Shown here: one piece after another, positions 43,659-63,211 of the stretch
Layout of the letters: every line of letters starts with the position of its first letter
Position numbering within the stretch: the first letter of the stretch is position 1
Assembly: GCA_012963885.1 (NCBI GenBank)
Contig: DTUY01000143.1
Coordinates: forward strand, 1 to 64,000
Direction: 5' to 3'
Source of the DNA: Candidatus Poribacteria bacterium
Lineage (GTDB): Bacteria; Poribacteria; WGA-4E; UBA9662
DNA length: 64,000 bases
The notes under the pieces: model-generated
The model's input: the letters and a program-made list of their open reading frames with translations, nothing else
Told to the model about the DNA's origin: nothing
The model's database searches: none
Translations under genes and position numbers: made by a program

Positions 43659-43666
43659 TTGAGAAT

Positions 43667-45010: not shown

Positions 45011-45035
45011 ATCTTAAATTTTGAGATGATTGGGC

Positions 45036-46286: not shown

Positions 46287-46345
46287 TAGAATTCGTGTCC
46301 TTATTAATTTTCTGGTATTTAATAGATCAGCGTTAATTGATTTCG

Positions 46346-47596
46346 CTATCCGTTGGTTATCTTGAGACAAACTATCTCACTCATACTGCGGAGATAAAGT
46401 TTTCCACCCGACAGCGTTGGAACGGTCCAACATGTGCCATCAAGCACTTGCATGCTTGCCTTCTCTTTAAAACCTGAAGAGGAGGCTTCAACCAATGCCA
46501 ATTTGCCTTTGTCACTAAGCATAATTAAATGGTTATCAGCCAGTATTAGTGTTCCCTGACCATATCCTCGCTGTCTCCACATCTCTTTCCCAGTATTGGC
46601 GTTGATACAAACTAAAATACGGGCATCAAAACCGAAAAGGTAATCACCATTCAGAACGGCAGTACCAAATTGATTTTTCATCACCTTGCTTCGCCAGACT
46701 TCTTCAACGTCAATACTTTCATTATTGAGTTTCATCTGTAATGTTGTGGCACCAACACCATATCCTGAGGAAATAAAGAGTTTATCACCCGGAATTAAAA
46801 CAGGTGTGCTCGCATTAACATCATAACTCGTTTCCCAAGGATGCTTCCAATATATCTTTCCACTTGTTGGGGCGACAGAAACTAAATAATTTCCAGTGAA
46901 AAAGATTGCTTGACGAATATCATAACTTGTGATGGCAATTGGCGATGAGTATCCACCAATTTTGTTTTTGCCAGACTTCCAAATTATGTTTCCGCTGTTC
47001 TTATCGAAAGCAACAAGGGAAGCATTAGATCTACCACCAACTTCAACCAAAACTAAATCCTCTTCAATGAGTGGAGATGTAGAGAATCCCCATCTTGGCG
47101 TTTTTCCTCCAAATTGTCGCTTTAAATTATGTGACCATATTTTATTTCCATTTTGGGCGTTCAAGGCATAGATTTTACCGTGAGCACTTATGGCAAAAAG
47201 CATATTCTTTTCTATGGTTGGAGTGGAACGTGGTCCATGCCCTCCCATTGAGTCGAGATAGACTTCATCGGATTGAAAACGCCAGATCTCTTTCCCTTTC
47301 GATATATCAAAGCAGTAGATGAATTCCTTTCCATCCATAGTATCCATGGTATATCCACGTCCCTTCGCAATCGAAATGCCAGAGAATCCATCGCCAATCG
47401 GAACTCTCCACAGAATTTGTGGACGATTCACTGACCATTCCGTCAAAAGGTTAGTTTCATGGGAGACACCATCCCGATTTGGACCAAGCCACTGGGACCA
47501 TTCTAACGCTGAAGTCTGGTGATTTTCAGCGTGGGTGTGTATCAAAACACTGAGAAAAATAAATACAAATATTTGTGCGAAAAAGGGTTGTTTCAT
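46346..47596 (-). CDS. PQQ-type beta-propeller repeat protein
   Basis: 416 residues. Signal peptide 1-22 (MKQPFFAQIFVFIFLSVLIH), then WSQWLGPNRDGVSHETNLL and a beta-propeller of about seven blades with repeated GKEIWRFQSDEV and GNKIWSHNLKRQ type units. It shares a large fraction of positions with the neighbouring propeller (same WLGPNRDG start, CWTVPTLSGGKLYLRS end), so the pair arose by tandem duplication. Function unknown; likely periplasmic. Confidence 0.87.
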   Translation of the reverse strand: MKQPFFAQIFVFIFLSVLIHTHAENHQTSALEWSQWLGPNRDGVSHETNLLTEWSVNRPQILWRVPIGDGFSGISIAKGRGYTMDTMDGKEFIYCFDISKGKEIWRFQSDEVYLDSMGGHGPRSTPTIEKNMLFAISAHGKIYALNAQNGNKIWSHNLKRQFGGKTPRWGFSTSPLIEEDLVLVEVGGRSNASLVAFDKNSGNIIWKSGKNKIGGYSSPIAITSYDIRQAIFFTGNYLVSVAPTSGKIYWKHPWETSYDVNASTPVLIPGDKLFISSGYGVGATTLQMKLNNESIDVEEVWRSKVMKNQFGTAVLNGDYLFGFDARILVCINANTGKEMWRQRGYGQGTLILADNHLIMLSDKGKLALVEASSSGFKEKASMQVLDGTCWTVPTLSGGKLYLRSMSEIVCLKITNG

Positions 47597-47625
47597 TACT
47601 TATATCTTTCTTTTTTCCTGCTGGT

Positions 47626-48978
47626 CTAGGTATAGCGTGAATTGCGATATTTCATATCATAGAATTCGGGTAATAGTTGGTCGACTTGAAGCAATCCTTT
47701 TCGGGTTAATATGACTTGATCTTCAGTGAACGTCAGCATACCTTCACCCTGAAGTTTGCTATAACCTGCTGCAAATTCCTCTAAAATGTTGACGCCAAAT
47801 TTTTCTAGAAAATATGTTGTTTTAATTCGACCAAGTTTAAGCTGTAGAATCATCTCACGGATTAGTTTTTCTGATTTGCTGGTTGGTAGCGCGCGTCCTA
47901 GGGGAAGATGGTTTGCATCCAGAGAGTTGATGTATGATTTCCAGTCGGTAAGGTTTTGAAAGTGAACACCATTGATATGTGAAAAGGATGCAACTCCAGT
48001 ACCAAGCAGATCGCTGCTGTGCCAAACAGCATTTCGATACACAAAATGAGACGGCTTGGTTTTCTTAACCATAGTGTAAGCGCTTGAAATCTGATAGTCT
48101 GCTGCTTCAAACTGTTCAAAAGCGAAATTATGCCATTCCCTTTTCGTTTTCCAATCGGCAACTCGCGTTCCTGCATTGTCATTACCGAGAATTTCTTTAG
48201 AGTAAACGGTGTTGAATGGTAACTCCATTTGGTAAACTGTGATACTATCAGGGTTTAGATCAATAGTCCGTTTGACTGTGTCCTTCCAGCTTTCCCATGT
48301 TTCACCAACCATTCCGGCAATCAAATCGATGTTTAACTGGTTAAACTCCAAATCGTGGATCCACGGGATTACTCGATAGACCTCCTTTGTTGAATGGGCC
48401 CTGCCATTTTCTATCAAAATGGTATCATTTAGGTTTTCAACGCCAAGGCTCAACCGAGTAACTCCGATCTCACGAATAGTTTGTAATTTGCTTTGTGTCA
48501 ACGTTCCAGGTTCGCATTCGAAAGCAACCTCTTGGGCGCTTTCCCAAGACATCACTGATTTGAGTCGTTTTGCAAGCTGATCTAAATGCTTGCTGCTAAT
48601 ATAAGATGGTGTTCCACCACCGAAATAGACGAACTTTAATGACCGTCCTTTTACGGCTTCAACCTGACTGTAAAGTTCAACCTCTCTTACCAGTAGATCA
48701 AGGTAAGTTTCAATCTCAGAACTATTTTTATCCACGTATACCCGAAAATAACAGAATTTGCACCGCTTTCGGCAGAAAGGGATGTGAAGATAAAGTCCGA
48801 GATCTGTGTCTATATTGGGAGGAGACTTCAGGACATTTTCAACTTTTGGCAGATTCTTTTCCGACCAGAATGAGTAAGGTGGATAATTTGAAACAAAAAC
48901 GCTTCCAATCTCTGTCTCCCGTGATTCATTTCTTGTTGTTGCCGGTTCGGGTTTAGTCGCTTCGACATTTCTATCCAT
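47626..48978 (-). CDS. HemN/HemW-like radical SAM protein
   Basis: 450 residues from ATG 48978, with GGGGAG upstream; a frame open to 49023 overlaps the next gene. The radical SAM [4Fe-4S] motif is C69-x3-C73-x2-C76 in HIPFCRKRCKFCYF. It has VYFGGGTPSYIS, GVTRLSLGVENLND and NIDLIAGMVGETWESW, all typical of the coproporphyrinogen III oxidase-like family (HemN, HemW, HutW). A C-terminal helical wing follows (LIREMILQLKLGRIKTTYF). It could handle haem or a related tetrapyrrole. It lies between propeller genes, which is an unusual setting. Confidence 0.85.
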   Translation of the reverse strand: MDRNVEATKPEPATTRNESRETEIGSVFVSNYPPYSFWSEKNLPKVENVLKSPPNIDTDLGLYLHIPFCRKRCKFCYFRVYVDKNSSEIETYLDLLVREVELYSQVEAVKGRSLKFVYFGGGTPSYISSKHLDQLAKRLKSVMSWESAQEVAFECEPGTLTQSKLQTIREIGVTRLSLGVENLNDTILIENGRAHSTKEVYRVIPWIHDLEFNQLNIDLIAGMVGETWESWKDTVKRTIDLNPDSITVYQMELPFNTVYSKEILGNDNAGTRVADWKTKREWHNFAFEQFEAADYQISSAYTMVKKTKPSHFVYRNAVWHSSDLLGTGVASFSHINGVHFQNLTDWKSYINSLDANHLPLGRALPTSKSEKLIREMILQLKLGRIKTTYFLEKFGVNILEEFAAGYSKLQGEGMLTFTEDQVILTRKGLLQVDQLLPEFYDMKYRNSRYT

Positions 48979-48982
48979 AGTA

Positions 48983-50125
48983 TTATTTCTCCCCAAAACA
49001 GTATAGTACACCATTAGTGGCACCTATAACGAGTTTACCTGATGCCACGCTTGGAGATGCGGTAATAGGCGATCCGATTGTGAATTTCCAAACAGGTTCG
49101 CCTGAATCGATTGCTAACGCGTAAAGATTTCCCGCCGATGTACCAAAGATGACGCGGTCATCCACAATAACTGGCGAGGACTCAATCTGAGATTTGGTTG
49201 CGTAAGTCCAAATCAGGTTTCCCGATTTTGGTTGCAGTGCATGAACTATCTTGTCGCGACCTCCAACAATAACGACATTTTCTGTCACGGCTGCTGAAGC
49301 ATAGAACGGAAATTGCCTTACTGGATGCTCATACCTCCAGAGAATTTTACCTGCCTTCAAATCAACTGCAATCACTTGATTGCCATATGTTCCCATATAA
49401 GCATTGTGGCTGTATATAGCAGGACTGGCTATAACGTAATCGCCTAAAAGAATCCGACAATTTTCAACACCATCTTGGGTGTTGATTATACGCAGATAAC
49501 CATCGCAACCTGAAACGGCCACAAGATTATCCACAATCGCAGGTGTTCCGTGAACATAACCTTCAGTTTCGAACTTCCAGATCAAAGAACCAGTCTTTGC
49601 CTCAAGACAATACAGGTATTGGTCGTATGAGCCAAATAGTACCCGGTCATCGATAAAATTGGCTGATGAAATAATGCTAGCATCTGCCTGGAAAATCCAT
49701 TTTTGTTGGTTAGTTTGAATGTCAACCGCATGAAAAATGCCCTGCTCATCACCAAAATAAATAGTATTTTCGGATACAGACGGCGACGATTTTATTTCAT
49801 CTGTAGCCTGATATTTCCATTTGACTTGACCTGTGTCCAGGTTGACAGCATAAAGATAACCATCTAACGATCCAACGTAAACGATACCGGCATATATGGC
49901 TGCGGTCGACTCAATTGCGTCCTCTGTTTCAAATGTCCACAACAACTCTATATCAGCAGGAAGTTTACTCTTAGCAACTCCTGTTAACTGTTGGTTTCCG
50001 CGAAAGCTTGGCCAATTAAAACCATTAGAAATTGGTTCACTATACCCAACGAGTAAAGCACAAAAACTTTCCACTATGATTGTACAAAAAACGATCTTAA
50101 AAAGTAAATTTTTAAGTTTTTCCAT
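48983..50125 (-). CDS. PQQ-type beta-propeller repeat protein (BamB-like)
   Basis: 380 residues from ATG 50125 (an ATG seven codons upstream is possible). Signal peptide about 1-25 (LLFKIVFCTIIVESFCALLV), then NWPSFRGNQQLTGVAKSKLP and seven or eight blades of the form YLYAVNLDTGQVKWKYQATD and IIYFGDEQGIFHAVD. This is the BamB-like PQQ repeat family. Its 3' end is 4 bases before the HemN-like start, so the two are cotranscribed. It is diverged from the tandem propeller pair further on. Confidence 0.85.
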   Translation of the reverse strand: MEKLKNLLFKIVFCTIIVESFCALLVGYSEPISNGFNWPSFRGNQQLTGVAKSKLPADIELLWTFETEDAIESTAAIYAGIVYVGSLDGYLYAVNLDTGQVKWKYQATDEIKSSPSVSENTIYFGDEQGIFHAVDIQTNQQKWIFQADASIISSANFIDDRVLFGSYDQYLYCLEAKTGSLIWKFETEGYVHGTPAIVDNLVAVSGCDGYLRIINTQDGVENCRILLGDYVIASPAIYSHNAYMGTYGNQVIAVDLKAGKILWRYEHPVRQFPFYASAAVTENVVIVGGRDKIVHALQPKSGNLIWTYATKSQIESSPVIVDDRVIFGTSAGNLYALAIDSGEPVWKFTIGSPITASPSVASGKLVIGATNGVLYCFGEK

Positions 50126-50211
50126 TAAGTCAGATCTCAACTGCATCCTTATACTGTTTACTGTGAAGCTGGTAAATTTCCACTCAATATAGATCTATCC
50201 AGCATCAAGGG

Positions 50212-51546
50212 TCAGTACAGACCAAGATAGTTATCAGATTCCCATTTGCTAACTGTATTGTGATATTGACGCCACTCTTCGTTTTTGACCTGTATGTAAT
50301 AATCAGCATATTCAGATCCCAACGCTTGTTTAATGACTTCATCAGCTTCTAAACAGTCTACAGCTTCTTTTAGCGATCTGGGTAAAACACCAATCTCACG
50401 CCGCCGAAGTTCATCTTCTAAAACTTCATAGAGGTTATCGTCATTCCGCTCCCCCGGGTCGATCTTGTTTTCAATGCCGTCCAAGCCTGCGGCAAGCATG
50501 GCTGCCATTACCAAATAGGGGTTAGCTGCGCCATCTGCCGATCTGTTTTCAATTCGGCCCGGTGCAGGAATACGTACCATCTGTGTACGATTACTGCCGC
50601 CATAAGTGATATAAACCGGAGCCCAGGTTGCCCCCGATCGGGGTGCCCCACTAATCAGACGCTTATAACTGTTAACAAGGGGATTGGCTACCGCGGCCAG
50701 AGCTTTAGCGTGTTTAAGAATACCTCCCATAAACCAATAAGCAAGCTGTGATAATCCATTTCTGTCCTCTTGGTCAAGGAACAGATTTTCTTGATTTTCC
50801 TCGTCCCATAGACTCATATGCAGATGTGCTCCGTTGCCAGTCAAGTTAGCAAATGGTTTAGGCATGAAAGTTGCCAGTAGACCCTGTTCCTCAGCAATTG
50901 TTTTTACCATCCATTTATAGAAGGTATGCCGGTCGGCGGTGGTTAGGGCATCGGAATAGACCCAGTTAATTTCGAACTGGCAGTTAGCATCTTCGTGATC
51001 ATTAGCATAAGGGGACCAGCCCAATTCTTGCATGTATTTGATCAGAGTCATCATTACGTCAAGGTTTCGGTGTAATGACTGCAAGTCATAGCAAGGTTTT
51101 TCCAAAGTATCAAGAGAATCCCACGGCGCGTAACGACCATTTTCATCACCTTTTAGTAGCATAAATTCTGCCTCAACGCCCACGTTGAAAATATAACCTT
51201 TCTGTTTAGAATTTTCCAACTGGCGTTGCAGAATAGTTCGGGGACAATAGGGCCATGGTTGATCATTCACCTGCACGTTCCCTGTCACCCAGGCCACATT
51301 TTTGCGCCAGGGAACAATCGTTAGAGAGTCAAAATCCGGGATACTTGCCATGTCAGGATCGTGCGGGCCTTGCCCCATTTCTCCGGCAGCAAAGCCAGCA
51401 AAACCTGCTCCTTCAGTTGCCATGTCGTCCAAGTGGGTTGCTGGAACCACTTTTGCTTTTGGAGCTCCACTCATTTCTACAAAAGAACAGAGAAAAAACT
51501 CGATACCGTTTTCGTTGACGAGTGATTTAACTTGATCTAGGGTCAT
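50212..51546 (-). CDS. gmaS: Gamma-glutamylmethylamide synthetase / glutamine synthetase family
   Basis: 444 residues with the glutamine synthetase fold: an N-terminal beta-grasp part (IEFFLCSFVEMSGAPKAKVV) and a catalytic part with FNVGVEAEFMLLKG (Glu metal ligands), NGAHLHMSLWDEENQEN, NSYKRLISGAPRSGATWAPV, and GRIENRSADGAANPYLVMAA. It is the last gene of the mgs-mgd cluster. In the N-methylglutamate pathway GmaS joins methylamine to glutamate at the expense of ATP, giving gamma-glutamylmethylamide. Alone it could be a glutamine synthetase of the GlnT type; linkage to mgs and mgd genes makes GmaS more likely. Confidence 0.85.
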   Translation of the reverse strand: MTLDQVKSLVNENGIEFFLCSFVEMSGAPKAKVVPATHLDDMATEGAGFAGFAAGEMGQGPHDPDMASIPDFDSLTIVPWRKNVAWVTGNVQVNDQPWPYCPRTILQRQLENSKQKGYIFNVGVEAEFMLLKGDENGRYAPWDSLDTLEKPCYDLQSLHRNLDVMMTLIKYMQELGWSPYANDHEDANCQFEINWVYSDALTTADRHTFYKWMVKTIAEEQGLLATFMPKPFANLTGNGAHLHMSLWDEENQENLFLDQEDRNGLSQLAYWFMGGILKHAKALAAVANPLVNSYKRLISGAPRSGATWAPVYITYGGSNRTQMVRIPAPGRIENRSADGAANPYLVMAAMLAAGLDGIENKIDPGERNDDNLYEVLEDELRRREIGVLPRSLKEAVDCLEADEVIKQALGSEYADYYIQVKNEEWRQYHNTVSKWESDNYLGLY

Positions 51547-51557
51547 GTTAGTCTCCT

Positions 51558-52259
51558 TTATTTAGACGATTGTTCTTGCAAGGTGTTTAAAGCCAATTGG
51601 CCTATCAGTGTTATGTCCCATTCATATCCAGCCTCAATAATAGTATGCCAAAGGTACTCGCCCAAGGATCTTGCTCCAATAACAGAAAACGCAGTTAAGC
51701 CAAGGATGTCTCGGCGGATAATCAACTGGATTGTTTTGGCGAAACTGCTTTGTTTAGCTGTCATATCGGGGAATACCAAAGGATGAAAGTCTAACCCACA
51801 CAATTTACTCAGTAGTTCTTGACTATCAGGTCCAACTATCATAATCTCCGATCGTCCGTGAGTAACATCTGTGATTGTGATAAATTGATTTGATTCTTGA
51901 GTTGCAGCCATCAAGTTTTCTATAATGATTTCTTCTTTACCAGGTAAAGTGCTGATGAAAAAGATATCGTTTCGTAGGCGATAGATTTTTACATCCATGA
52001 CCGAAGTCCCGGCGTTGATGGTAATCGTAGGCAGATCTAAAGTAGCTGTCAGAAAAGCGTGCGCTTGGTTGCCCTGAACCATTATTTTGCCGTTTGGTGA
52101 TACATCAGCAATTGCAACTCTTTGCCGAGCAGCCTCCAGTTCCTCTTCTAGTGTGGTATAAACTTGGGAAATTTTCCAACCTTGATGTTCAATTAACTGT
52201 GCATTACATTGCTGGGAAACCGAATGCAATGGTGTTAATTTAATCGGTAAATTTGACAT
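51558..52259 (-). CDS. mgdD: N-methylglutamate dehydrogenase subunit D (sarcosine oxidase gamma-like)
   Basis: 233 residues from ATG 52259 (MSNLPIKLTPLHSVSQQCNA); a longer frame would overlap the stop of mgdC. The SARGAMMA-type fold is recognisable by VAIADVSPNGKIMVQG, the middle IYRLRNDIFFISTLPG, DVTHGRSEIMIVGPDS and the C-terminal GARSLGEYLWHTIIEAGYEW. It is the small subunit of the four-part sarcosine-oxidase-like enzyme. Start three bases after the mgdC stop and end 11 bases before gmaS, so one transcript. Confidence 0.88.
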   Translation of the reverse strand: MSNLPIKLTPLHSVSQQCNAQLIEHQGWKISQVYTTLEEELEAARQRVAIADVSPNGKIMVQGNQAHAFLTATLDLPTITINAGTSVMDVKIYRLRNDIFFISTLPGKEEIIIENLMAATQESNQFITITDVTHGRSEIMIVGPDSQELLSKLCGLDFHPLVFPDMTAKQSSFAKTIQLIIRRDILGLTAFSVIGARSLGEYLWHTIIEAGYEWDITLIGQLALNTLQEQSSK

Positions 52260-52261
52260 TT

Positions 52262-55156
52262 TCAGACATCCTGCCGTGCGCCTACTGGATCGTAAAAAGC
52301 CCCATGATGAACACAAGCCCTTTCTAATTTTTCATTCAGGTAGATTGTAAACGAAGTTCCATTCTGGTTACCCAAATCTGTTGGCAACCAACAGAGCCCA
52401 ATTGCCTGGTTCAAAGTAGGACTAAAACGGCTAGAGGTAACCCAACCAATGATTTTTATCTTTTTGCCCGGTTTTTTGCTTACGATCTGGCTGCCTTCTT
52501 CAGGGACAATATCAGGACAGTCCATCTTAAATCCAACTAACAATTGTTTGGTGCCTTCAGCAGTGATCCGTGTAAAGGCTCGTTTGCCCAGAAAGTCGGG
52601 TTTGTTCATCTTAACTATCCATTCCATATTAGCTGAAAGCGGATCAGATAAAGCGTCTGTATCCTGTCCCACAATAATGTGTGCTTTTTCTAATCTAAGT
52701 ATTCGTTGCGCTTCGACTCCGAAAGGCAGGATACCGAATTCCTCTCCAGCTTGCATCAAAGATTCCCAGACGTGCATGGCATAGCCAGATGGACAATGGA
52801 TTTCATAGGAGAGTTCGCCAGTGAACCCAATCCTCATTAATCGGCACGGAACCCCCGCGACTTCAGCAATGCGAACGGACATGTAGGGGAATTCATCGCT
52901 ATCGAGGTTACAGATGGTTAGCTTGCTCAGCATTTCTCGGGATTGTGGTCCAGTAACGTTGAAAGCAGAGAAGACCTCAGTTAAATTTGTCAGATGGATA
53001 CCATTCCCCCAACCTGACTGTAACCACCATTGTATCCACTCAAAGATGCCCGTTACTCCAGAGGAAGTAGTACTCATGTACCACGTTTCATTACTCAGAC
53101 GAGCGCAAACACCGTCATCAAGTATTATTCCTTCATCATTACACATCACACCGTAGCGAACCCTCCCTAAACGAAGTTTACGCCATTGATTAACGTAAAT
53201 GCGTTCAAGCAAATCGGGTACTCCTAATCCAGTCAGCTGTAACTTGCCTAACGTGCTGACATCAATCAGACCGACCCGTTCGCGTACAGCCAAAACTTCA
53301 TCTTTAGGATTGCTATAATGTTCGGGGCGTAGCCACAGCCCTGTTACCATCATTTGGGCGCCGTGGTTTAAGTGCCAATTATGAATTGGCGACAATTGTA
53401 CCGGGTCCATGTTTTGTCCAGCTAAGGTCCCTAGAGCTATCGGCTCTAGGGGAGGCCTGGCGGTTGTCTTACCGGTTTCCTGTACGGTCCAATTGTTGGC
53501 ATGAGCACAACGGTGAATAGTATTCATTGAACACATCTTCCCTTGGCAGGGGCCCATTGAAACGGTGCTATACCTTTTGAGCAGTTCAATACTTTGATAA
53601 CCTTCCTCAACTGCCATTTCTATATCCTGATCAGTAACATCTTCGCAGAAACAGACAAATTGTTTCTTCCTACTTGGGATGTTTAGGTGCGCAGACGTAC
53701 GGATCGTTTCATCGGTAATAGTGGGTATCTTACATAAAAGGCCATCTGTTTCAGAATCTATGGAATTAAACGCCTGCAAGCCCACTTGTTCACCCTGAGC
53801 GATTTGTTGATCCAATGCATGTGTACCTGTTGCCCGCCCAGTTACATAGAGATGGGGAGGGCTGGTTATCGGCAGTATTTCTGACCTTTCTTTATTGTAT
53901 TCTGTTTTTCCGCCTGCCATGTAAAATAGTTCAAGCGCGGGGATCCAGCCGACACTAATGGCGATTAAATCGCATGCTAACCACCGTTTAGTTGATAGAT
54001 CGATCTTGCCGTTGGAATCAAGCTGTCCGATTTTCGCACCCTTTACTGATTTTGTACCAGTTGCGTCTAGTATCGTATGTTTGTAAAAGGTAGGTATATG
54101 ATCAGTAACTGATTCGTTCAAATGCAAGCCACTACAATCTTTCTGAGATCGTTGATCGACAATGGCAACCACTTCGAGGCCAGCAGTTCGGAGATTCGCT
54201 GCCACCCGCCATCCATCTTCATTAGCTGTTACAATCAGAATCTTTTTCCCCGGACAAACGCCGAAAAGGTGGAGAAGACGTTGTACGGCACTACCTAGCA
54301 TCACACCTGGCAGATCATTATTTCCAAAGACAAGAGGCATTTCATAAGCACCGGTAGCTATGACCAAAGATTTGGATCTGACTTTGAGCAGACGAGTTCC
54401 CCGAGTAGCCGACAGCCAGTTGTCTTTATACCATCCTAGAATGGTAGTGTCAGTAAAGACAGTAACATTTTCGTGTTGAGCCAGGGATTCTAAGAGGCTG
54501 GGTAAGTATGAATTTGGATTGTACCTTAGGTGACCACCTAGGGCTGATTCACCATCGAAAAGCATTACCCTTGCTCCCTGTTTGGCAGCTGAGAGCGCTG
54601 CACTTATACCAGATAGACCACCGCCGATTACCGCAACATCAGTATGTAGATACTGTTTATCAAATTTGCCTGGTGGTGTGTTGGGATCAACCTTACCTAA
54701 CCCGGCTGCCTGGCGTAACATTCGTTCGTAAAGGGGCCACAATGATGGTGGATGTATAAAGGTTTTGTAGTAGAAGCCTACAGGCATTAGCCGTGATCCT
54801 GCTTGAGTCAGGGAAAGGAGATCATAGTCGAGTGATGGCCAAGCATTTTGAGATCGAATGTTCATTCCAGGAGTTATCTCCCTTCTGCAGGCTCGAACAT
54901 TCGGTTCATCACTAACTTGCACCAAACAATTTGGGCAATGACCAGAACAACAGAGAAGTCCGCGTGGTCGATGGTACTTAAAGGAACGACTTAGGATCTT
55001 GACATCTGCGGCCGTTAAAGCTGAAGCAATTGTATCGCCTGAATAGGCAGTATATTCTTGACCATCAAAGTTAAAAGTAATGGTGGCCGAGCGGTCAACA
55101 GTTTCCCCTTGCTGTTTGGGAATACGATTGGATTTTGGTGATGGAATTGCCTGCAA
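52262..55156 (-). CDS. mgdC: N-methylglutamate dehydrogenase subunit C (sarcosine oxidase alpha-like)
   Basis: 964 residues from TTG 55156. The N-terminal Fer2-type domain has cysteines C69, C74, C77 and C90 in a C-x4-C-x2-C-x12-C pattern. An FAD/NAD domain follows (VAVIGGGLSGISAALSAAKQ, about 172-191), then FVCFCEDVTDQDIEMAVEEG with a later GPCQGKMC, matching a BFD-type Fe-S region. From about 590 lies a GcvT-like folate-binding domain (VGLIDVSTLGKLQLTG; RIGFTGELSYEIH), consistent with passing a methylene group to tetrahydrofolate. It is the catalytic backbone of the enzyme. Stop 3 bases before mgdD. Confidence 0.93.
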   Translation of the reverse strand: MQAIPSPKSNRIPKQQGETVDRSATITFNFDGQEYTAYSGDTIASALTAADVKILSRSFKYHRPRGLLCCSGHCPNCLVQVSDEPNVRACRREITPGMNIRSQNAWPSLDYDLLSLTQAGSRLMPVGFYYKTFIHPPSLWPLYERMLRQAAGLGKVDPNTPPGKFDKQYLHTDVAVIGGGLSGISAALSAAKQGARVMLFDGESALGGHLRYNPNSYLPSLLESLAQHENVTVFTDTTILGWYKDNWLSATRGTRLLKVRSKSLVIATGAYEMPLVFGNNDLPGVMLGSAVQRLLHLFGVCPGKKILIVTANEDGWRVAANLRTAGLEVVAIVDQRSQKDCSGLHLNESVTDHIPTFYKHTILDATGTKSVKGAKIGQLDSNGKIDLSTKRWLACDLIAISVGWIPALELFYMAGGKTEYNKERSEILPITSPPHLYVTGRATGTHALDQQIAQGEQVGLQAFNSIDSETDGLLCKIPTITDETIRTSAHLNIPSRKKQFVCFCEDVTDQDIEMAVEEGYQSIELLKRYSTVSMGPCQGKMCSMNTIHRCAHANNWTVQETGKTTARPPLEPIALGTLAGQNMDPVQLSPIHNWHLNHGAQMMVTGLWLRPEHYSNPKDEVLAVRERVGLIDVSTLGKLQLTGLGVPDLLERIYVNQWRKLRLGRVRYGVMCNDEGIILDDGVCARLSNETWYMSTTSSGVTGIFEWIQWWLQSGWGNGIHLTNLTEVFSAFNVTGPQSREMLSKLTICNLDSDEFPYMSVRIAEVAGVPCRLMRIGFTGELSYEIHCPSGYAMHVWESLMQAGEEFGILPFGVEAQRILRLEKAHIIVGQDTDALSDPLSANMEWIVKMNKPDFLGKRAFTRITAEGTKQLLVGFKMDCPDIVPEEGSQIVSKKPGKKIKIIGWVTSSRFSPTLNQAIGLCWLPTDLGNQNGTSFTIYLNEKLERACVHHGAFYDPVGARQDV

Positions 55157-55435
55157 TTATGATTTTCCAACAATGGAATTTGGCTGCCAAAGATATGTCT
55201 TGGTGACTTGATTAGTTTGCGTTTTTCGTTCAGCAAGAAACCAAATCCCACAACCAGCGTTATGATACCACCACTCCGTTTGCATGTCCATTCTGTTATT
55301 ACGAAGATAGAGGTAATCAGTCCATTCTGCATCGTTGCAAGCAGAAGGGTCTTGAGGACGTGGATTATATTCTCCACCAAAACGGAATTCACTGGCGTTC
55401 CGATTCCCACAGTTAGGACAAGTCAAGACTAACAT
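55157..55435 (-). CDS. mgdB: N-methylglutamate dehydrogenase subunit B (sarcosine oxidase delta-like)
   Basis: 92 residues from ATG 55435, overlapping the sulfotransferase stop as TGATG. The SoxD fold is marked by LTCPNCGNRNASEFRFGGEY, WTDYLYLRNNRMDMQTEWWY, then HNAGCGIWFLAERKTQTN. The CPNCG cysteines and the later His/Cys are the likely zinc ligands; relatives usually have CGPR where this has CGNR. It is the zinc-binding subunit of the tetrameric enzyme. Its stop is directly followed by the mgdC start. Confidence 0.88.
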   Translation of the reverse strand: MLVLTCPNCGNRNASEFRFGGEYNPRPQDPSACNDAEWTDYLYLRNNRMDMQTEWWYHNAGCGIWFLAERKTQTNQVTKTYLWQPNSIVGKS

Positions 55436-56043
55436 CAATTATTCCTTTTGAATGGGGTTAACCGCTGGTGATAGAGATTATAGTCAACAACATCTTTTAT
55501 GGCTTGTTGATCCAAGTTCTTTCCAAGAAAAGCTTGAAGCTTGGCAGAGATCTTAACAGGATTTTCCAATACGTCCCTGTAACTTACAAAGAGTGTAGAT
55601 ATTTGACGATCATCCAACATTTTTTTGACCTGATACAGCTGTTTGGCAAAGATTTGGCTCAGACGTTTGTCTGAAGGATCTCCTTCACTCCGACCTTGAT
55701 TTTCAAGCATCTTGCGTTGAGAAGCAAGGACCTCATCGAGATTACGTTCCATGAAGACAACTTTGTAATCCAATTCAGGTGGGAGACAAGATAATAGATG
55801 GGAAATGATTTTTATGGCTTTTCCTTTGGCTTCAGAAAGCCATGAGTTGTCGATGCGTAACCCCTTGACTTTCTCAAATTCAAAATAACCTTTTGGATTA
55901 CTGATGTCGGCTTCACGTAGTTCGTCTGTTATACAGGGTAATCCTCCTGTTTGCAGCATCTGCATCATCATTGAGGTGCCAGAACGCGGTAATCCGGAAA
56001 CAATGGTGATGATTTCATCATTTTTAGGTTCTAATTGATTCAT
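55435..56043 (-). CDS. Sulfotransferase family protein inserted in the mgd cluster
   Basis: 202 residues with a PAPS-binding 5'-phosphosulfate loop (SGLPRSGTSMMMQMLQTGG, 16-34), the DISNPKGYFEFEKVKGLR segment, and VVFMERNLDEVLASQRKM (about 94-111) with the 3'-phosphate-binding Arg. It would transfer sulfate from PAPS to an alcohol or amine. It lies between mgdA and mgdB and overlaps mgdB by a TGATG junction, so it is embedded in the operon. I am not aware of a sulfotransferase in well-described mgd operons, so its role is unclear. Confidence 0.87.
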   Translation of the reverse strand: MNQLEPKNDEIITIVSGLPRSGTSMMMQMLQTGGLPCITDELREADISNPKGYFEFEKVKGLRIDNSWLSEAKGKAIKIISHLLSCLPPELDYKVVFMERNLDEVLASQRKMLENQGRSEGDPSDKRLSQIFAKQLYQVKKMLDDRQISTLFVSYRDVLENPVKISAKLQAFLGKNLDQQAIKDVVDYNLYHQRLTPFKRNN

Positions 56044-56186
56044 TTGTCCTTAAATTCTGTTTTTGCTGGTTTTCGATATGTTTATGTTGATCAATGTTTT
56101 GACAATGGGTGGATTTCAGAATTTCGGTAAATTTGCTAAATTGAAGTGCGCCTGCTCCGGCTTAATACTTGATGGATGAGTGTTAT

Positions 56187-57425
56187 TTAGTGTCCCACTG
56201 AGGCCGCTCCCTTTTCTCCTACTAGTTGGTTCTCAGCGAATCGCGATAGCCTAAAAGGCAAAATCAGTTCTGGGATCTTGCCCGTAGCGATTGATTCTGC
56301 TAACATTTTGCCGGCGATGGGAGACGCTTTGAATCCATAAGTTCCCCATCCTACGTCCAGGAGGAATCCATCCACCGGAGTTGTTCCCATGATCGGACTG
56401 TAGTCAGGAGGCATTTCGCAAATCCCCGCCCATTGACGTAAAACACAAACCTTGTTTAAGAATGGAAAAAGTTCTAGTACGTGGCCGGCTATGCTTTCAA
56501 GAGATGAAAGTGAGCCTGCCATTGAATAGGAAGGGAACGGATCCACGCTGGCTCCCATCACTAGTTCCCCACGATTTGATTGGCTGATATAAACATGTAA
56601 GCTACCGGAAACCACTACCACATCAAGAAAAGGTTTTAACGGTTCAGTTACGCAAGCTTGTAAGGGAATAGTCACCAAAGGGAGCTTGATCCCAACCATT
56701 GCCGCCACTGTTGAGGCCCAACCGGCAGTAGCGTTGAGAACAATTCCAGTTTTAATCTTACCTTGATTTGTTTGTACGCTTGTTACCTTCCCGTTTTGTG
56801 TGTTGATACCAGTGACTTTAGTTTGTTGATGTATATGGATTCCATGCAGGTCCGCATGATGGGCAAATCCCCAGACAACTGCATCGTGCCGAATAATCCC
56901 ACCAGGTGGATGATAAAGCGCCGCTAAAATAGGATAGCGGGGGGTTTGGCTGACATCCAAGCAAGGACACAGACGAGAAATTTCGTTTGGCCAGATAAGT
57001 TGCGAATCCACACCTTGGATTTGGTTGACTTCGGCGCGACGGCGCATGGTACGTACAGCACCGTCGGTATGAGCAAGAGTTAGGTGCCCCCGTTGACTGA
57101 ACATCACGTTGAAGTCTAGCTCATCGGACATCTGCTCATAGAGCTTTACACTCTGATTATAAAAACTAACTCCTTCAGGTGTAAGGTAGTTACTTCGAAC
57201 GATAGCGGTATTACGTCCGCTGCCACCAGAACCGATGTAGTTTTGTTCTAGGACAGCCACATTATTGATCTGGTGTTTTGTGGCTAGATAATAAGCGCAT
57301 GCAAGCCCATGTGCGCCTCCGCCAACAATCACGATATCATAGCTATCCCGCAGTGAGTGGGAATGCCACATCTTTGGCAATAATTTTTTGCTGGTGAAGG
57401 CTTGACGGATGAGTTTCAGTGACAT
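56187..57425 (-). CDS. mgdA: N-methylglutamate dehydrogenase subunit A (sarcosine oxidase beta-like)
   Basis: 412 residues of the DAO/GlyDH family. FAD-binding VIVGGGAHGLACAYYLA at about 32-48, followed by GSGRNTAIVRSNYLTPEG, the segment typical of SoxB beta subunits that carry covalent FMN. The C-terminal WAGICEMPPDYSPIMGTTP and GFLLDVGWGTYGFKASP regions complete the substrate/FAD site. It oxidises the N-methyl group of N-methylglutamate (or sarcosine in the oxidase). It begins about 55 bases after mgsC and ends about 140 bases before the sulfotransferase gene. Confidence 0.9.
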   Translation of the reverse strand: MSLKLIRQAFTSKKLLPKMWHSHSLRDSYDIVIVGGGAHGLACAYYLATKHQINNVAVLEQNYIGSGGSGRNTAIVRSNYLTPEGVSFYNQSVKLYEQMSDELDFNVMFSQRGHLTLAHTDGAVRTMRRRAEVNQIQGVDSQLIWPNEISRLCPCLDVSQTPRYPILAALYHPPGGIIRHDAVVWGFAHHADLHGIHIHQQTKVTGINTQNGKVTSVQTNQGKIKTGIVLNATAGWASTVAAMVGIKLPLVTIPLQACVTEPLKPFLDVVVVSGSLHVYISQSNRGELVMGASVDPFPSYSMAGSLSSLESIAGHVLELFPFLNKVCVLRQWAGICEMPPDYSPIMGTTPVDGFLLDVGWGTYGFKASPIAGKMLAESIATGKIPELILPFRLSRFAENQLVGEKGAASVGH

Positions 57426-57479
57426 TTGTTGATTACTTTAATTGTAGTTAACAAAAATGGGCTCAATTTCTTTTGGCGG

Positions 57480-58835
57480 TTATTCTCGCCTTTGCCAGCC
57501 TGGACCATCCCCAAAGACACGATTAGTTCCCACCAACGGAATGCCACAAATCATTGATGCTTCCAGGTTCAAGGCACGAAGATCCTCAGGATCAAGGTTG
57601 TGTATATTGGCTTTCCCACAAGCTCGAGCCAGAATCTGGATTTCTGATGTCATGGCCTGTAAAAGATTAGCTACCCGTTCTGCACCTTGGTCAATCTCAA
57701 GACGTTCTGTCAGTTGAGGATCCTGCGTTGTTATGCCAACAGGACAACGTCCAGTATGACAATGATGACAGTGATACGGTTCGGTGCCAAGTTGGTGGTA
57801 ATCCTCGATATGCAGGGGTTTATTGCAATTAAGCGCTATTAACGCTGCTGTGCCGATATAAACTGCATCCGCTCCAAGTGCCATGGCTTTTGCTGCATCT
57901 ACCCCGTGCCGAATTCCGCCAGCGATAACGATTTGAACTTCACCATATAACCCAATGTCTTCCAGCGCTGCTCGCGCTTCACAGACGGCAGCCAATGTGG
58001 GAATTCCGGTATGTTCTTGGCAAATTTCAGCTGAAGCCCCAGTTCCACCTTCCATTCCATCCACTACGATCACATCAGCCCCAGCCTTAGCTGCCAGCTT
58101 AACATCATCAAACACACGGGTTGCTCCCATTTTCACAAAAATTGGTACTTCCCAGTTAGTAGCTTCTCGTAGTTCTTCGATCTTTATGATCATATCATCA
58201 GGTCCCAGAAAGTCAGGATGCCTAGCAGGACTACGTTGATCCACTCCCAAAGGCAGGTCCCGTTGTTCTGCAATTGTATCCAGCACCTTTGAATCCAGCA
58301 ATAATCCTCCTGTGCCAGGCTTGGCACCTTGTCCAATTGTTAATTCAATTGCATCCGCTGCTTTCAAATCGTGAATATCAAAACCGTACCTTGATGGAAG
58401 AACTTCGTATATTAGGGTTTTACTATGTTCTCTTTCTGCCTTTAACATTCCGCCATCGCCGGTTGTATTAGAAGAACCAACTATATTTGCTCCTTTAGCA
58501 AGGGCAACTTTAGCATTGTAAGAGAGTGCTCCCCAACTCATGCCTGTAATCATAATAGGAATATCAAGTTGAATTGGTGTATTGGCAAATCGAGTGCCAA
58601 GTATGGTTGTTGGTGAGCAACGCTCGCGATAACCTTCCAATGGAATCCGTGTTAAGGTACAGGGAATAAAGGTCAAGTCGTCAAATGTCGACCATCGCCT
58701 TTCACGGAGTGTTCCAAAGCCGCGGATGCGGTATCGTCCTAATTCCGCTTTGACTTGGATATCTTCAATGACCTCAGGGGTGAATATGTCACTCTGTCGT
58801 AGCGGTTGATAGTTTGAGCTAACTTGTTTAGACAA
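57480..58835 (-). CDS. mgsC: N-methylglutamate synthase subunit C (glutamate-synthase-like FMN subunit)
   Basis: 451 residues from a TTG start with AAGGAG upstream. It corresponds to the FMN-binding glutamate synthase domain: MITGMSWGALSYNAKVALAK, the VGSSNTTGDGGMLKAEREHS flavin-site loop, ELTIGQGAKPGTGGLLL, and VIVVDGMEGGTGASAEIC. CHHCHTGRCPVGITTQDP near residue 353-370 carries the three cysteines of a [3Fe-4S] cluster. MgsC makes N-methylglutamate from gamma-glutamylmethylamide together with MgsA and MgsB. The stop is about 54 bases before mgdA. Confidence 0.92.
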   Translation of the reverse strand: MSKQVSSNYQPLRQSDIFTPEVIEDIQVKAELGRYRIRGFGTLRERRWSTFDDLTFIPCTLTRIPLEGYRERCSPTTILGTRFANTPIQLDIPIMITGMSWGALSYNAKVALAKGANIVGSSNTTGDGGMLKAEREHSKTLIYEVLPSRYGFDIHDLKAADAIELTIGQGAKPGTGGLLLDSKVLDTIAEQRDLPLGVDQRSPARHPDFLGPDDMIIKIEELREATNWEVPIFVKMGATRVFDDVKLAAKAGADVIVVDGMEGGTGASAEICQEHTGIPTLAAVCEARAALEDIGLYGEVQIVIAGGIRHGVDAAKAMALGADAVYIGTAALIALNCNKPLHIEDYHQLGTEPYHCHHCHTGRCPVGITTQDPQLTERLEIDQGAERVANLLQAMTSEIQILARACGKANIHNLDPEDLRALNLEASMICGIPLVGTNRVFGDGPGWQRRE

Positions 58836-58942
58836 AGTTGATATCTCCTTAGTACTGAATATAAATTGATTTAAGCAGGCAGTCGCCGGACAAAATTCAG
58901 AAAAGATTGATACTACTTTATATTTTTATGGCTTATTGTTAA

Positions 58943-59653
58943 CTATAATGCTTCTCTCCATATTTCTCGCTCTTTTTTATTAAAGTTCCATAGTTTGCGT
59001 CCAGAGACAATTTTTTTATACTTATGAATATCATTTGAAAGATACTGGTTTTCCTGTGGTAGATGATTGGACAAAGTGAGGGTGAGAAAGCGAAGGTCCT
59101 CTTCAGTTGGTTCTTCAATGACGGCATCATTTCCAAGTTCGGCGATTTCCCCACCCACAAAACAGACTGATTCATACATTGAATCTGCAAAAGCTTCACC
59201 AGTGTTACCGCAAACGATTATGGTTCCTTTCTGTGCCATGAAACCCGCCATGTACCCACAATTACCGGCAACTAGAATGAGTCCTCCCTTCATCGAAACA
59301 CCTAAACGGGCTGCTGCATCATTATGAATAACCACTGTTCCTCCACGAATTGACGCAGCGGCGCCATTGCCGACACAACCTTCGACAATAACCGTGCCAT
59401 TCATCATGGACTCGGCTAATCCCCAACCCGCGCTTCCTTTGACCTTTACAGTTGGCCCATCGATCATGCCAGCACAATAATAACCAACACTACCGTCAAA
59501 GACGATATCAACGGGTTGCAAAATTGCTACTCCCAAATTGTGTTGTGCCTTAGATTCCTTGACAAGGAACTCAGTTTCTCCCTGATTGATGAGTTGCTTA
59601 ATCTGAAGATTTATATGGCGGGTGCTTTGACCTTCACAAATTATTTCTGCCAC
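58943..59653 (-). CDS. mgsB: N-methylglutamate synthase subunit B (GXGXG-motif protein)
   Basis: 236 residues from GTG 59653, which overlaps the mgsA stop by 13 bases and has AAAGGAG upstream. The protein is a right-handed beta-helix with repeating Gly motifs (KVKGSAGWGLAESMMNGTVI, IVEGCVGNGAAASIRGGTVV, LVAGNCGYMAGFMAQKGTI), the GXGXG domain of glutamate synthases. It is a scaffold linking the glutaminase and the FMN subunit. A basic C-terminal tail (YKKIVSGRKLWNFNKKERE) extends beyond the domain. Confidence 0.92.
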   Translation of the reverse strand: MAEIICEGQSTRHINLQIKQLINQGETEFLVKESKAQHNLGVAILQPVDIVFDGSVGYYCAGMIDGPTVKVKGSAGWGLAESMMNGTVIVEGCVGNGAAASIRGGTVVIHNDAAARLGVSMKGGLILVAGNCGYMAGFMAQKGTIIVCGNTGEAFADSMYESVCFVGGEIAELGNDAVIEEPTEEDLRFLTLTLSNHLPQENQYLSNDIHKYKKIVSGRKLWNFNKKEREIWREAL

Positions 59654-60534
59654 AAGCGTATCTCCTTTGATTGTGATTCACGAACAGTGTAGTTTCCAGG
59701 AAAGACAGAACGAATTGCAATTTCTTCAGTTGCAATAGCAACAAAATCATCGGTTTCCGTGAATAGAAGCGGTTTAAAGGCAAAAGGATCTTTAGCAAAG
59801 CCGATACTATCCGGTGTTGAAACAAGGTAGCTGAACGAACCATCAAAGTCAGTAATCGAAGCTTCTAACACTTCTTGTAGCACCATTCCTTTTGACAATT
59901 GATCAGCGAAATAGATGCCGATGATTTCGGAGTCGTTTTTGGTGTGAAACTTAGTACCACGTTGTTCGTAAAGCCGACGCATAGTATGGTAATTCGTAAT
60001 ATGTCCGTTATGAACAATAGCAAGATCTGCATAACCATATGCCCAAAAGGGCTGTGAATGGCTTAAATCAACGCGACTTTCTGTTGAAAGACGAGTGTGT
60101 CCTAAACCGTGTGTACCAGTAAAACCAGAGATATTGTAAGTAGATTCCAGATTTTGTGGTGTGCCGACCTGTTTAACCACTTCAAGTTGAGTTCCAAGAC
60201 TAACAACTTCGATGCCTTGATTTAAAGATTCAACAAATTTTAAAAATGACATAGTATCTACCTCAAGATTTATTACAAGGCGAAGATACTCAGCTACGAT
60301 TTTAACCTCATCTATCGAACCAAATTCTTCCAACTGTTCTACTATGAAAGTGGCTTCTTTTTGTCTGCCAAGTTTAATCCGCACCACCATCCCTTTATTC
60401 CTCTTCTGCCCGTACAATGCCACCCCAGCAGAATCGGGACCTCGTGCACCTAAAGCATTCAGCATTTGGAGGATAGTCTCTCCAACAGAGGTCCTGTTTT
60501 TGGTCTTATCTAAAAAGCCAACAATTCCACACAT
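59641..60534 (-). CDS. mgsA: N-methylglutamate synthase subunit A (class II glutamine amidotransferase-like)
   Basis: 297 residues starting MCGIVGFLDK: Cys2 becomes the N-terminal nucleophile of the class II (Ntn) amidotransferase. Further motifs are LGARGPDSAGVALYG, GLGHTRLSTESRVDLSHSQP, IVHNGHITNYHTM, and FHTKNDSEIIG. It liberates the methylamine (or ammonia) group from gamma-glutamylmethylamide for transfer by MgsB and MgsC. It starts about 28 bases after the iron alcohol dehydrogenase gene and overlaps mgsB, so it lies in one transcript with both. Confidence 0.93.
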   Translation of the reverse strand: MCGIVGFLDKTKNRTSVGETILQMLNALGARGPDSAGVALYGQKRNKGMVVRIKLGRQKEATFIVEQLEEFGSIDEVKIVAEYLRLVINLEVDTMSFLKFVESLNQGIEVVSLGTQLEVVKQVGTPQNLESTYNISGFTGTHGLGHTRLSTESRVDLSHSQPFWAYGYADLAIVHNGHITNYHTMRRLYEQRGTKFHTKNDSEIIGIYFADQLSKGMVLQEVLEASITDFDGSFSYLVSTPDSIGFAKDPFAFKPLLFTETDDFVAIATEEIAIRSVFPGNYTVRESQSKEIRLWQK

Positions 60535-60561: not shown

Positions 60562-61710
60562 TTAGTAAGCCTGTTCATACAATTTCAACAATTCGGTTTC
60601 GCTAATCGGGCGCGGGTTAAACTTCCCTGTCCACTGGCTAGACGCTTCCTTTGCCAATTGGGGCAAATCCTGCCTATCAATTTGGCAATCTCTGAGTTTA
60701 TCTGGAAGATTCGCTGCCGTTTTTAATTTTTTTATCTGTATAACAAGGTTTCCTCCAGCCTCGTCTTGTTTTAATATATGCGAACCTGAGGCAATTAGCA
60801 ACTCGCGATAAAGTCTTTCCACCACGTGACTGTTAAAAGCAATCACGTGAGGAAGCATCAATCCAACGGCCACCCCATGGGTAATACCATACCTACTGGT
60901 TAAAGGGTTTGCACAGGCGTGTGCAGCACCAAGCATGGAAGACTCAATCGCCATTCCAGCAAAATGTGCACCCAACAACATTTCACCACGTGATTTTGTT
61001 GTGGAGCCTTCACGCAATGAGAATTCGAAATTTTTCGACAACAAATACCACGCTTTCTTAGCCAACATCTGGGAGACATAGTTCCGCTTGGTAGTGACAT
61101 AACTTTCCACCGCATGCGAAATGGCATCAATTCCTGTGGCAGCCCCAACTTTTTCAGGCACGGTCTCAGTCAGATTCGGATCAAGAATCACGGTTCGAAA
61201 CCGGGCTTTTTCATCACCACAAGCCATTTTAAGATGCGTTCCATTCTGAGCAATCAGTGCGTAAGATTGCGCTTCACTTCCTGTACCAGCTGTGGTTGGA
61301 ATTCCAATCGATGGTAGCATTGGTTTGGTTGCTTTACCAAATCCCCAGTAGTCTTGCATCACACCGCCATTAGTGAGCAAAAAGTTGATACCTTTAGCAC
61401 AATCCAGGGTACTACCGCCTCCCAAACCAACAATAAGGTTAAGATCTTTATATTGTTTGGCAAAAACCGTACCATGTTGAACATGTTCAACTGTCGGGTT
61501 AGGAAACACATCATCGAAAATAACAACATCGAGCTTAGCTTTTTTTAAAGAGTCAATAGCTTTGTCTGCTATCCCTGCCCTTCTAACCTCTGGGTCAGAT
61601 ACCAATAAAGCAGAGCTTCCATTCAAATCTTTGGCTAAATCCCCCAGTAATTCTATCTTGCCTTCTCCAAAAACAACACGTATACTGGGCTTGAAATCGA
61701 AAGATTGCAT
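60562..61710 (-). CDS. Iron-containing alcohol dehydrogenase
   Basis: 382 residues of the group III (Fe-ADH) family. NAD-binding LIVGLGGGSTLDCAKGINF (about 92-110) and IGIPTTAGTGSEA (about 136-148), and metal-site region GIDAISHAVESYVT, plus SSMLGAAHACANPLTSRYGI and ITHGVAVGLMLPHV with the His ligands. It interconverts an alcohol and aldehyde with NAD(P). It sits between the NMG cluster and an aldehyde-dehydrogenase-like gene on the same strand. It could process formaldehyde or another aldehyde formed by that module; this is not settled by sequence. Confidence 0.92.
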   Translation of the reverse strand: MQSFDFKPSIRVVFGEGKIELLGDLAKDLNGSSALLVSDPEVRRAGIADKAIDSLKKAKLDVVIFDDVFPNPTVEHVQHGTVFAKQYKDLNLIVGLGGGSTLDCAKGINFLLTNGGVMQDYWGFGKATKPMLPSIGIPTTAGTGSEAQSYALIAQNGTHLKMACGDEKARFRTVILDPNLTETVPEKVGAATGIDAISHAVESYVTTKRNYVSQMLAKKAWYLLSKNFEFSLREGSTTKSRGEMLLGAHFAGMAIESSMLGAAHACANPLTSRYGITHGVAVGLMLPHVIAFNSHVVERLYRELLIASGSHILKQDEAGGNLVIQIKKLKTAANLPDKLRDCQIDRQDLPQLAKEASSQWTGKFNPRPISETELLKLYEQAY

Positions 61711-61741
61711 TATATTAACAAGGTAGTCCCGCCACCTTACC

Positions 61742-63202
61742 TTAAACTGACGCGACGACGGGTTGCTGAAACTCTAGTGGAGATGTTGAACGCTGGAATG
61801 CACGTTGTCGGTACAGGAGTTCGAACAAATTCCCTTCATGCGGCTGATCCCAAGAAATTTTGTTGGTTGGGATTTGTCCTATATTAAGGCGCTCGATGTC
61901 GGTACAATGAAGAAGATCGGCGATAAAAGCTTTGTCATTGGTAATAGCTGTAGCCACCAGTGTGGATTCGATCTGATCCAGAATCTGTGACTGCGGTGTT
62001 TCAACCACACTCACAAACGGGAACAAGAATTCGGTGTTGGCTAGTGGGTGCTTTGGATCGGTGCAGTAAACCACCATTGGTAACATAAAAGTGTATCCGT
62101 CGACTTCAACTATACGATCTATGCCGAATATTTCAGCGGTAAGATCAATCGCACCTTCTATTTTAAGTTGGTTGTCGATCATCTCGGAAAGTTGGTGAGC
62201 CATCACCGGATTAGTAAAGGCGGCCAGTTTAGCTTGGGGATGATCCAGTGGCAATGCATCGATCTGGCTGAACCTCTCTGCCAGTGCCTCTGCTACTCTT
62301 CGTCCATTGGACGACAACCATATACCAGAGGCATTGATACAGGACCTACCGCTGTTTTCGGTGGTAGAGGCCACCAATAAATCAAGATGATTTTCCCAGT
62401 TGTCGATAGCGTCTTCTCCAATTAAGATCTTGCTCCAGCCGGGACCGTGAATTTGAATGCGGGGATCGGATTCCCACGGCGCGACGGTCGATTGTCCACC
62501 GTACAGCATGGCTTTACCCGACCGGAGCAAAAGCTCGGTGGCACCAGAATGGTTGGTTGGATAAAAACTGAAGGCTTCAGGTGGACAACCCGCTTTGATC
62601 AAAGCTTGTGCCACCCGATATGGTGTCCATGGTTCCGCGCTACCTGGTTTTAGCACCACTGGCACTTTCAAAGGTATTGATGGCAGCCAAAGCGAATGGA
62701 CTCCCGCCGAATTACTGGGCAAGACCGCTCCGAGACTATGAGTGGTGCAAATATAGCCAAGTGTTCGACCATGTTGCTGCCCTGATCCTCGGTCAAGAAT
62801 GTCAAGATCAAGTCCCCGTGTCAGTCCCCCTAGTACATCCTCCATCTGATCCAAAACTGTGAATATTTTGTCCATGTTTCTTCCACAAAGGGTTTTAGGC
62901 ACACCGGTTGAAGCAGAAAGTTGGTCGATATAGTCTGAGGGCGATTGGGATTGATCACCGATGGGTAAATTGTCATAAATGAAGTGTTGGCCTGCATGCT
63001 GACAGATTTTGATTAAATCTTGGACAGAAAAGGGATCCAATTTCCGTTGGTTTTCCATCATGGACATGAAATCACGAGCAATCAACCCCGGATTGGCCTG
63101 ACTAACGACTGCCATTGGTTCTTGTGTTTGGCTGTGCGGCAGTTCAACCTTCGATAGACTCTGGTAAATCTGTCCGGCTCGCAGAAGCGGAATGTGCAGC
63201 AT
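61742..63202 (-). CDS. Aldehyde dehydrogenase family / LuxC-like reductase
   Basis: 486 residues from ATG 63202, which has AGGA seven bases upstream. The nucleotide-binding core VVLKPGSAEPWTPYRVAQAL (about 182-201) and the catalytic cysteine C288 in ENSGRSCINASGIW identify the ALDH fold. The remaining sequence is divergent from ordinary ALDHs and close in layout to LuxC-type acyl reductases that pair with an adenylate-forming partner. That partner lies directly upstream (cut by the right edge), and an iron alcohol dehydrogenase follows 31 bases downstream. It may convert an activated acid to an aldehyde, or the reverse. Confidence 0.82.
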   Translation of the reverse strand: MLHIPLLRAGQIYQSLSKVELPHSQTQEPMAVVSQANPGLIARDFMSMMENQRKLDPFSVQDLIKICQHAGQHFIYDNLPIGDQSQSPSDYIDQLSASTGVPKTLCGRNMDKIFTVLDQMEDVLGGLTRGLDLDILDRGSGQQHGRTLGYICTTHSLGAVLPSNSAGVHSLWLPSIPLKVPVVLKPGSAEPWTPYRVAQALIKAGCPPEAFSFYPTNHSGATELLLRSGKAMLYGGQSTVAPWESDPRIQIHGPGWSKILIGEDAIDNWENHLDLLVASTTENSGRSCINASGIWLSSNGRRVAEALAERFSQIDALPLDHPQAKLAAFTNPVMAHQLSEMIDNQLKIEGAIDLTAEIFGIDRIVEVDGYTFMLPMVVYCTDPKHPLANTEFLFPFVSVVETPQSQILDQIESTLVATAITNDKAFIADLLHCTDIERLNIGQIPTNKISWDQPHEGNLFELLYRQRAFQRSTSPLEFQQPVVASV

Positions 63203-63211
63203 CAAGTTTTC

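Follow-up and report, generated by a model that had tools for sequence, protein, structure and literature searches.

What is known of methylamine turnover by the N-methylglutamate (NMG) route comes mostly from Proteobacteria, and gmaS is taken to mark organisms that use methylamine. Here we describe nine open genes, all on the minus strand at positions 50212-60534 of a 64,000-nucleotide stretch of DNA (hereafter the window; positions 1 to 64,000 of contig DTUY01000143.1, assembly GCA_012963885.1), which belong to a 6.8 Mb Candidatus Poribacteria metagenome-assembled genome (MAG) and very probably (at roughly 85%, in our estimate) encode a complete NMG pathway for monomethylamine. The cluster of Methyloversatilis universalis FAM5 comprises the same eight gene functions and also has MgdD as its most divergent subunit; in its published description gmaS stands first (gmaS-mgsABC-mgdABCD), (PMC5023235), whereas in the window it stands last and mgdA is separated from mgdBCD by a sulfotransferase-like gene. 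Deletions of mgsC and mgdD abolish growth of Methyloversatilis on methylamine (PMC5023235). The rhizobial and roseobacter clusters (Phyllobacterium, Rhodobacteraceae SC52 and R. johnstonii pRL11) likewise combine mgsABC and gmaS with four sarcosine-oxidase-like genes, but in two divergent blocks, mgdABCD and mgsABC-gmaS; unlike those of the window, their MgdC lacks all eight iron-sulfur (Fe-S) cysteines and their MgsC lacks the Fe-S motif. The order in Acidithiobacillus is mgd-gmaS-mgs.

A second group of clusters, to which we refer as the non-proteobacterial form, is found in MAGs of Binatia (two loci), Planctomycetota, Acidobacteria and Latescibacterota, which share with the window a GmaS with Ala175, gmaS in last position and an MgdC with eight Fe-S cysteines. 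The first three differ from the window in their mgsABC-mgdBCDA-gmaS order, while the Latescibacterota MAG carries mgsABC-mgdABCD as in the window, on one contig and one strand, but has a second glutamine synthetase (GS)/Mgs-like set ahead of gmaS. The full pathway has already been published for some Binatota genomes, apparently without mention of the Fe-S trait (PMC8262859).

An initial annotation of the window had claimed a complete NMG cluster on one strand, in the order mgsABC-mgdA-sulfotransferase-mgdBCD-gmaS, and this is borne out: gmaS, mgsABC and mgdABCD are all present, open, on the minus strand and matched to the expected families by Pfam and NCBIfam profiles. The NMG synthase genes are mgsA (59641..60534), encoding a class II glutamine-amidotransferase subunit (GATase_6/7) with the catalytic Cys2 kept, as in 58 of 58 aligned homologues; mgsB (58943..59653), encoding a GXGXG (FwdC-like) subunit (PF01493, E 4.7e-13) found alongside mgsA, mgsC and gmaS not only in Poribacteria but also in four other phyla; and mgsC (57480..58835), encoding an FMN glutamate-synthase-like subunit (PF01645, E 2.9e-96) with an intact Fe-S-type motif (C356-x2-C359-x4-C364), which is lost in rhizobial and roseobacter MgsC and kept in Acidithiobacillus and the non-proteobacterial form. 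Four sarcosine-oxidase-like subunits, as expected of an NMG dehydrogenase, are encoded with mgs and gmaS. MgdA (56187..57425) is a DAO-type, SoxB-like subunit (DAO/soxB, 478 bits) with a histidine equivalent to sarcosine oxidase beta His173, conserved in 41 of 41 aligned homologues, which we take to be the residue holding covalent FMN. MgdB (55157..55438), a SoxD-like zinc subunit (SoxD, E 5.1e-30), has Cys7, Cys10, His59 and Cys63, presumably matching the zinc ligands of sarcosine oxidase delta. MgdC (52262..55156), the SoxA-like alpha subunit, matches Fer2_4 (E 1.2e-31), FAD, SO_alpha_A3, Fer2_BFD and GCV_T, and MgdD (51558..52259) is a divergent SoxG-like gamma subunit (GCV_T 83.8 bits, SoxG 33.9 bits), for which the ATG at 52259 is a more likely start than the TTG at 52316. 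The final gene is gmaS (50212..51546), which matches Gln-synt_C and, at 621 bits, TIGR03105. The open genes, the family matches and the matches to solved structures rule out a chance or mis-annotated cluster.

From these assignments we infer the substrate and the direction of the route, its cofactors and electron acceptor, and its use by the cell. In the proposed scheme, GmaS would convert methylamine, glutamate and ATP into gamma-glutamylmethylamide, from which MgsABC, a complex of a glutamine amidotransferase and an FMN/Fe-S glutamate-synthase-like enzyme, would form N-methylglutamate. MgdABCD would then oxidise N-methylglutamate at the covalent FMN, regenerating glutamate and passing the methyl carbon to tetrahydrofolate (H4F) as methylene-H4F, and the net nitrogen product would be ammonium. 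In the non-proteobacterial form, electrons would leave through two predicted [2Fe-2S] clusters in MgdC, and MgdABCD is therefore predicted to be a true dehydrogenase and not an oxygen-reducing oxidase. Onward flow of the one-carbon unit through FolD is plausible, the genome holding both FolD and a PurU-like gene. The same genome also encodes an 821-aa DAO and GcvT protein resembling dimethylglycine/sarcosine dehydrogenases (L207:4819-7284).

The assignment of GmaS is carried by both its phylogeny and its functional residues. Among solved structures, the window protein scores highest with Rhodovulum RhGmaS (7cql, 448 bits), followed by 9qur (429 bits), which its depositors call a glutamate-methylamine ligase; the top GS match reaches 300 bits. 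A carefully built tree places the window protein within the GmaS clade, split from glutamine synthetases with 100/100 support, and its grouping with the latter has an approximately unbiased (AU) p value of 0.039. Of the 23 functional sites of RhGmaS taken from PMC7948447, 22 are identical, including the catalytic Asp177, Glu186 and Arg312, and the window protein agrees with RhGmaS where GS differs: it has Ala48 in place of the GS Asp50', Trp300 instead of Glu at the Glu-flap position, Asp177 and Lys30. The tree and these residues exclude an ordinary glutamine synthetase and, with the family matches, agree with the initial annotation in identifying the genes as MgsABC, MgdABCD and GmaS and in setting GmaS apart from GS. 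A third glutamine-synthetase-like protein of the genome (L003:1486-2844, G000:C142), with Cys at the Asp50' position and an amidohydrolase nearby, is far from known GmaS.

The sole exception among the 23 sites is Gln175, which is Ala in the window protein, so that the amine pocket is complete but for this residue. Ala175 is found in every examined GmaS of the non-proteobacterial form, in Poribacteria and in MAGs of six other labels (Binatia, Planctomycetota, Chloroflexi, Acidobacteria, Latescibacterota and Gemmatimonadetes). In RhGmaS, Gln175 lies in the amine pocket and also binds ATP phosphate (PMC7948447). Only Arg312, Asp177 and Glu186 are strictly conserved in GmaS according to the same study (PMC7948447), and Ala175 is therefore a variant and not grounds for exclusion from the family.

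Several observations weigh against a complete monomethylamine pathway, and the substitution at position 175 is the first of them, since a change in a residue of the pocket and of ATP-phosphate binding makes another small primary amine possible. No formate-tetrahydrofolate ligase (FTHFS) was found in the genome, and the PurU-like match (L211, G000:C189:66133-66915), although it scores above the cut-off, is interrupted by two in-frame stops that may be decay or assembly error; these two observations together make the route from methylene-H4F to formate uncertain. The NCBIfam scores of 884 against 1164 for soxA and 478 against 529 for soxB fall under the curated cut-offs, as would be expected of relatives of sarcosine oxidase that are not sarcosine oxidase itself, and no NMG-specific model was among the matches in the libraries searched. 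The AlphaFold model of MgdC has a mean pLDDT of 73.9, with most of the [2Fe-2S] regions below 50, and the estimated contamination of the MAG is 5.45%.

Among other explanations, the one that survives best, though still unlikely, is that the cluster handles another small primary amine, such as ethylamine, through an N-alkylglutamate, the change from Gln175 to Ala widening or shifting the GmaS pocket. The position does line the amine pocket of RhGmaS and is Ala throughout window-type GmaS, and RhGmaS itself takes ethylamine, with a Km of 58 uM compared with 27 uM for methylamine (PMC7948447). However, the pocket residues Lys30, Tyr147, Asp177, Glu179, Glu186 and Asn188 are all kept, and the C-terminal GcvT-type folate domain of MgdC is suited to accepting a single carbon, whereas an ethyl group would yield no such unit.

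The arrangement of the genes provides further information. In Binatia, Planctomycetota and Acidobacteria the genes for the three steps are clustered, with a GmaS of the same clade as that of the window, and in Latescibacterota they share a single contig; gmaS directly closes an mgs-mgd run in four other MAGs. Because the non-proteobacterial orders end in gmaS and the known proteobacterial ones differ, gmaS in last position is a habit of the non-proteobacterial form, which rules out a gene order unique to the window. The gene order that the initial annotation had called unusual is hence typical in its ending, its unusual features being the sulfotransferase-like gene and, within Poribacteria, the joining of all parts. 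Indeed, among 85 Poribacteria genomes surveyed, the full run occurs together only in that of the window. MgsB was found in 9 of the 85 and a full-length or split MgdC in 8 (window included), and sampled genes for all three steps are present in 8. In the genus g7, mgs-gmaS lies apart from mgd, with 1.67 Mb between them in a one-contig genome (G023). The second GS/Mgs-like set seen in Latescibacterota (L208:8494-13134) recurs there and in Proteobacteria, with further examples at L105, L112, L133 and L144; its GS-like, MgsA-like, MgsB-like and MgsC-like proteins show 31%, 37%, 39% and 56% identity, respectively.

About 50 Poribacteria genomes carry gmaS alone, and gmaS by itself is therefore no proof of the full pathway. 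In one family (f4), full-length gmaS is present in 52 of 59 genomes, examples being L049:9303-10637 and L052:9737-11068, and no MgdC or MgsB was found in any of the 59. This distribution speaks for a slightly less probable explanation than that of another amine, namely that GmaS works independently, in storing glutamyl-amides, detoxifying amines or salvaging nitrogen, its position next to mgs and mgd in the window being secondary. All 14 lone GmaS examined from the family keep every catalytic residue, with Gly replacing Ala48, and many of the genes lie in conserved neighbourhoods with thiamine genes (thiG, a thiO-like oxidase and an NMT1/THI5-like gene). It has also been noted that methylamine oxidation in M. 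universalis was not believed to require GMAS (PMC3160333). Against this stand the position of the window gmaS, which starts 11 nt past mgdD, and its place at the close of the mgs-mgd run in the four other MAGs. The neighbours of lone gmaS, being thiamine and unrelated genes, do not form a new methylamine module. In part of the family a creatininase-family gene lies near gmaS, and in one genome (G069:C123:28606-29292) gmaS is in two pieces with the middle missing, through decay or an assembly gap.

The window NMG dehydrogenase differs from the proteobacterial enzymes examined in its MgdC, which has four cluster cysteines in each of two domains, C69/C70, C74, C77 and C90 in the Fer2_4 site and C502, C504, C537 and C542 in the BFD-like site, and is predicted to carry two [2Fe-2S] clusters. 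Among the 40 alpha subunits compared first, the full eight cysteines occur in 14 of 14 MgdC of the non-proteobacterial form and in 0 of 26 others, which include alpha subunits encoded beside gmaS and mgs. Likewise, in 399 Pseudomonadota genomes drawn evenly, of which 88 have a homologue, the motifs are found in 0 of the 30 best loci. Both kinds of MgdC are found in Acidobacteria and in the phylum holding the Latescibacterota MAG, in which copies about 52-65% identical to the window protein have the motifs, several beside gmaS, and copies of about 40% identity lack them. A more distant acidobacterial family, 33-36% identical, has all eight cysteines.

Heterotetrameric sarcosine oxidase, represented by the solved structures 2gag and 1vrq, shares with the window enzyme its subunit architecture, covalent-FMN histidine, zinc-type delta subunit and GcvT folate domain, but its alpha subunit (2gag) is free of both [2Fe-2S] motifs. 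That MgdABCD is an oxidase of sarcosine or another N-methyl amino acid lying by chance beside an amide synthetase and a glutamate-synthase-like complex is very improbable, for although the subunit set is the same, the match to 2gag_B reaches 367 bits and some rhizobial MgdC group with sarcosine oxidase, window-type MgdC stands apart from that group (AU p 0.033 for joining it, a weak rejection of the grouping that would have told against the initial annotation), and mgsABC and gmaS, neither of which a sarcosine oxidase needs, recur beside it in Binatia, Planctomycetota and Acidobacteria. Because the rhizobial MgdC in question is encoded beside gmaS, MgdC/SoxA phylogeny alone cannot separate N-methylglutamate from sarcosine.

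The ancestry of the motifs was addressed in a tree from which the cysteine columns had been removed and which was rooted on the distant Fe-S acidobacterial family. Three changes of motif state are needed for the whole set, and 23 of 24 motif-free rows, sarcosine oxidase included, form one clade (support 93, not starred). In the simplest reading, which has moderate support at the key branches, the motifs would be ancestral and would have been lost on the way to sarcosine oxidase. We see about an even chance that the operon retains the ancestral Fe-S NMG dehydrogenase, which gave rise to heterotetrameric sarcosine oxidase and to the NMG dehydrogenases of Proteobacteria when both [2Fe-2S] clusters disappeared from the alpha subunit. 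If so, the window enzyme would represent a surviving intermediate that links Fe-S amino-acid dehydrogenases to the oxygen-using sarcosine oxidase. The differing predicted electron path makes this origin of sarcosine oxidase testable.

The pathway itself is known; the Fe-S variant of MgdC and the occurrence in Poribacteria appear to be new, in that we found no open-licence paper joining Poribacteria with N-methylglutamate and none that reports Fe-S sites in either NMG dehydrogenase or the heterotetrameric sarcosine oxidase. The pathway now appears in a sponge-associated candidate phylum, within a separate and widely spread non-proteobacterial form, and the cell would be a user of methylamine. 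Methylamine in sponges has been discussed (PMC9999580). The nearest named relatives of the window GmaS are Candidatus Poribacteria MAGs (81-85%), which confirms the assignment to Poribacteria. The G+C content of the cluster (44.4%) is near that of the whole window (42.6%), so the cluster is not conspicuously foreign.

The gene spacing is operon-like. The overlapping ends reported for the cluster are present at two junctions, mgsA/mgsB (13 nt) and sulfotransferase/mgdB (4 nt), the remaining genes abutting or lying 2-143 nt apart; Shine-Dalgarno-like sequences precede mgsB, mgsC and gmaS. Gene content, family membership, functional residues and cysteine motifs can all be read from the DNA itself. 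The sulfotransferase-like gene (55435..56043; Sulfotransfer_1/3, E 1.6e-8) is present in one copy in the genome, and a 58% identical homologue immediately precedes mgdB in a single further Poribacteria genome (G017); nothing that we found ties this gene to the pathway.

On the far side of mgsA (window 60562-64000), a gene encoding an iron-containing alcohol dehydrogenase stops 27 nt short of mgsA, and upstream of it on the same strand are aldehyde-dehydrogenase-like and AMP-ligase-like genes. A list of one-carbon genes in SAR11 includes an iron-containing alcohol dehydrogenase and an aldehyde dehydrogenase (PMC3160333). Several PQQ_2 beta-propeller proteins are encoded on both sides of the cluster, at window positions 43000-50146 and at L059:6693-11598.

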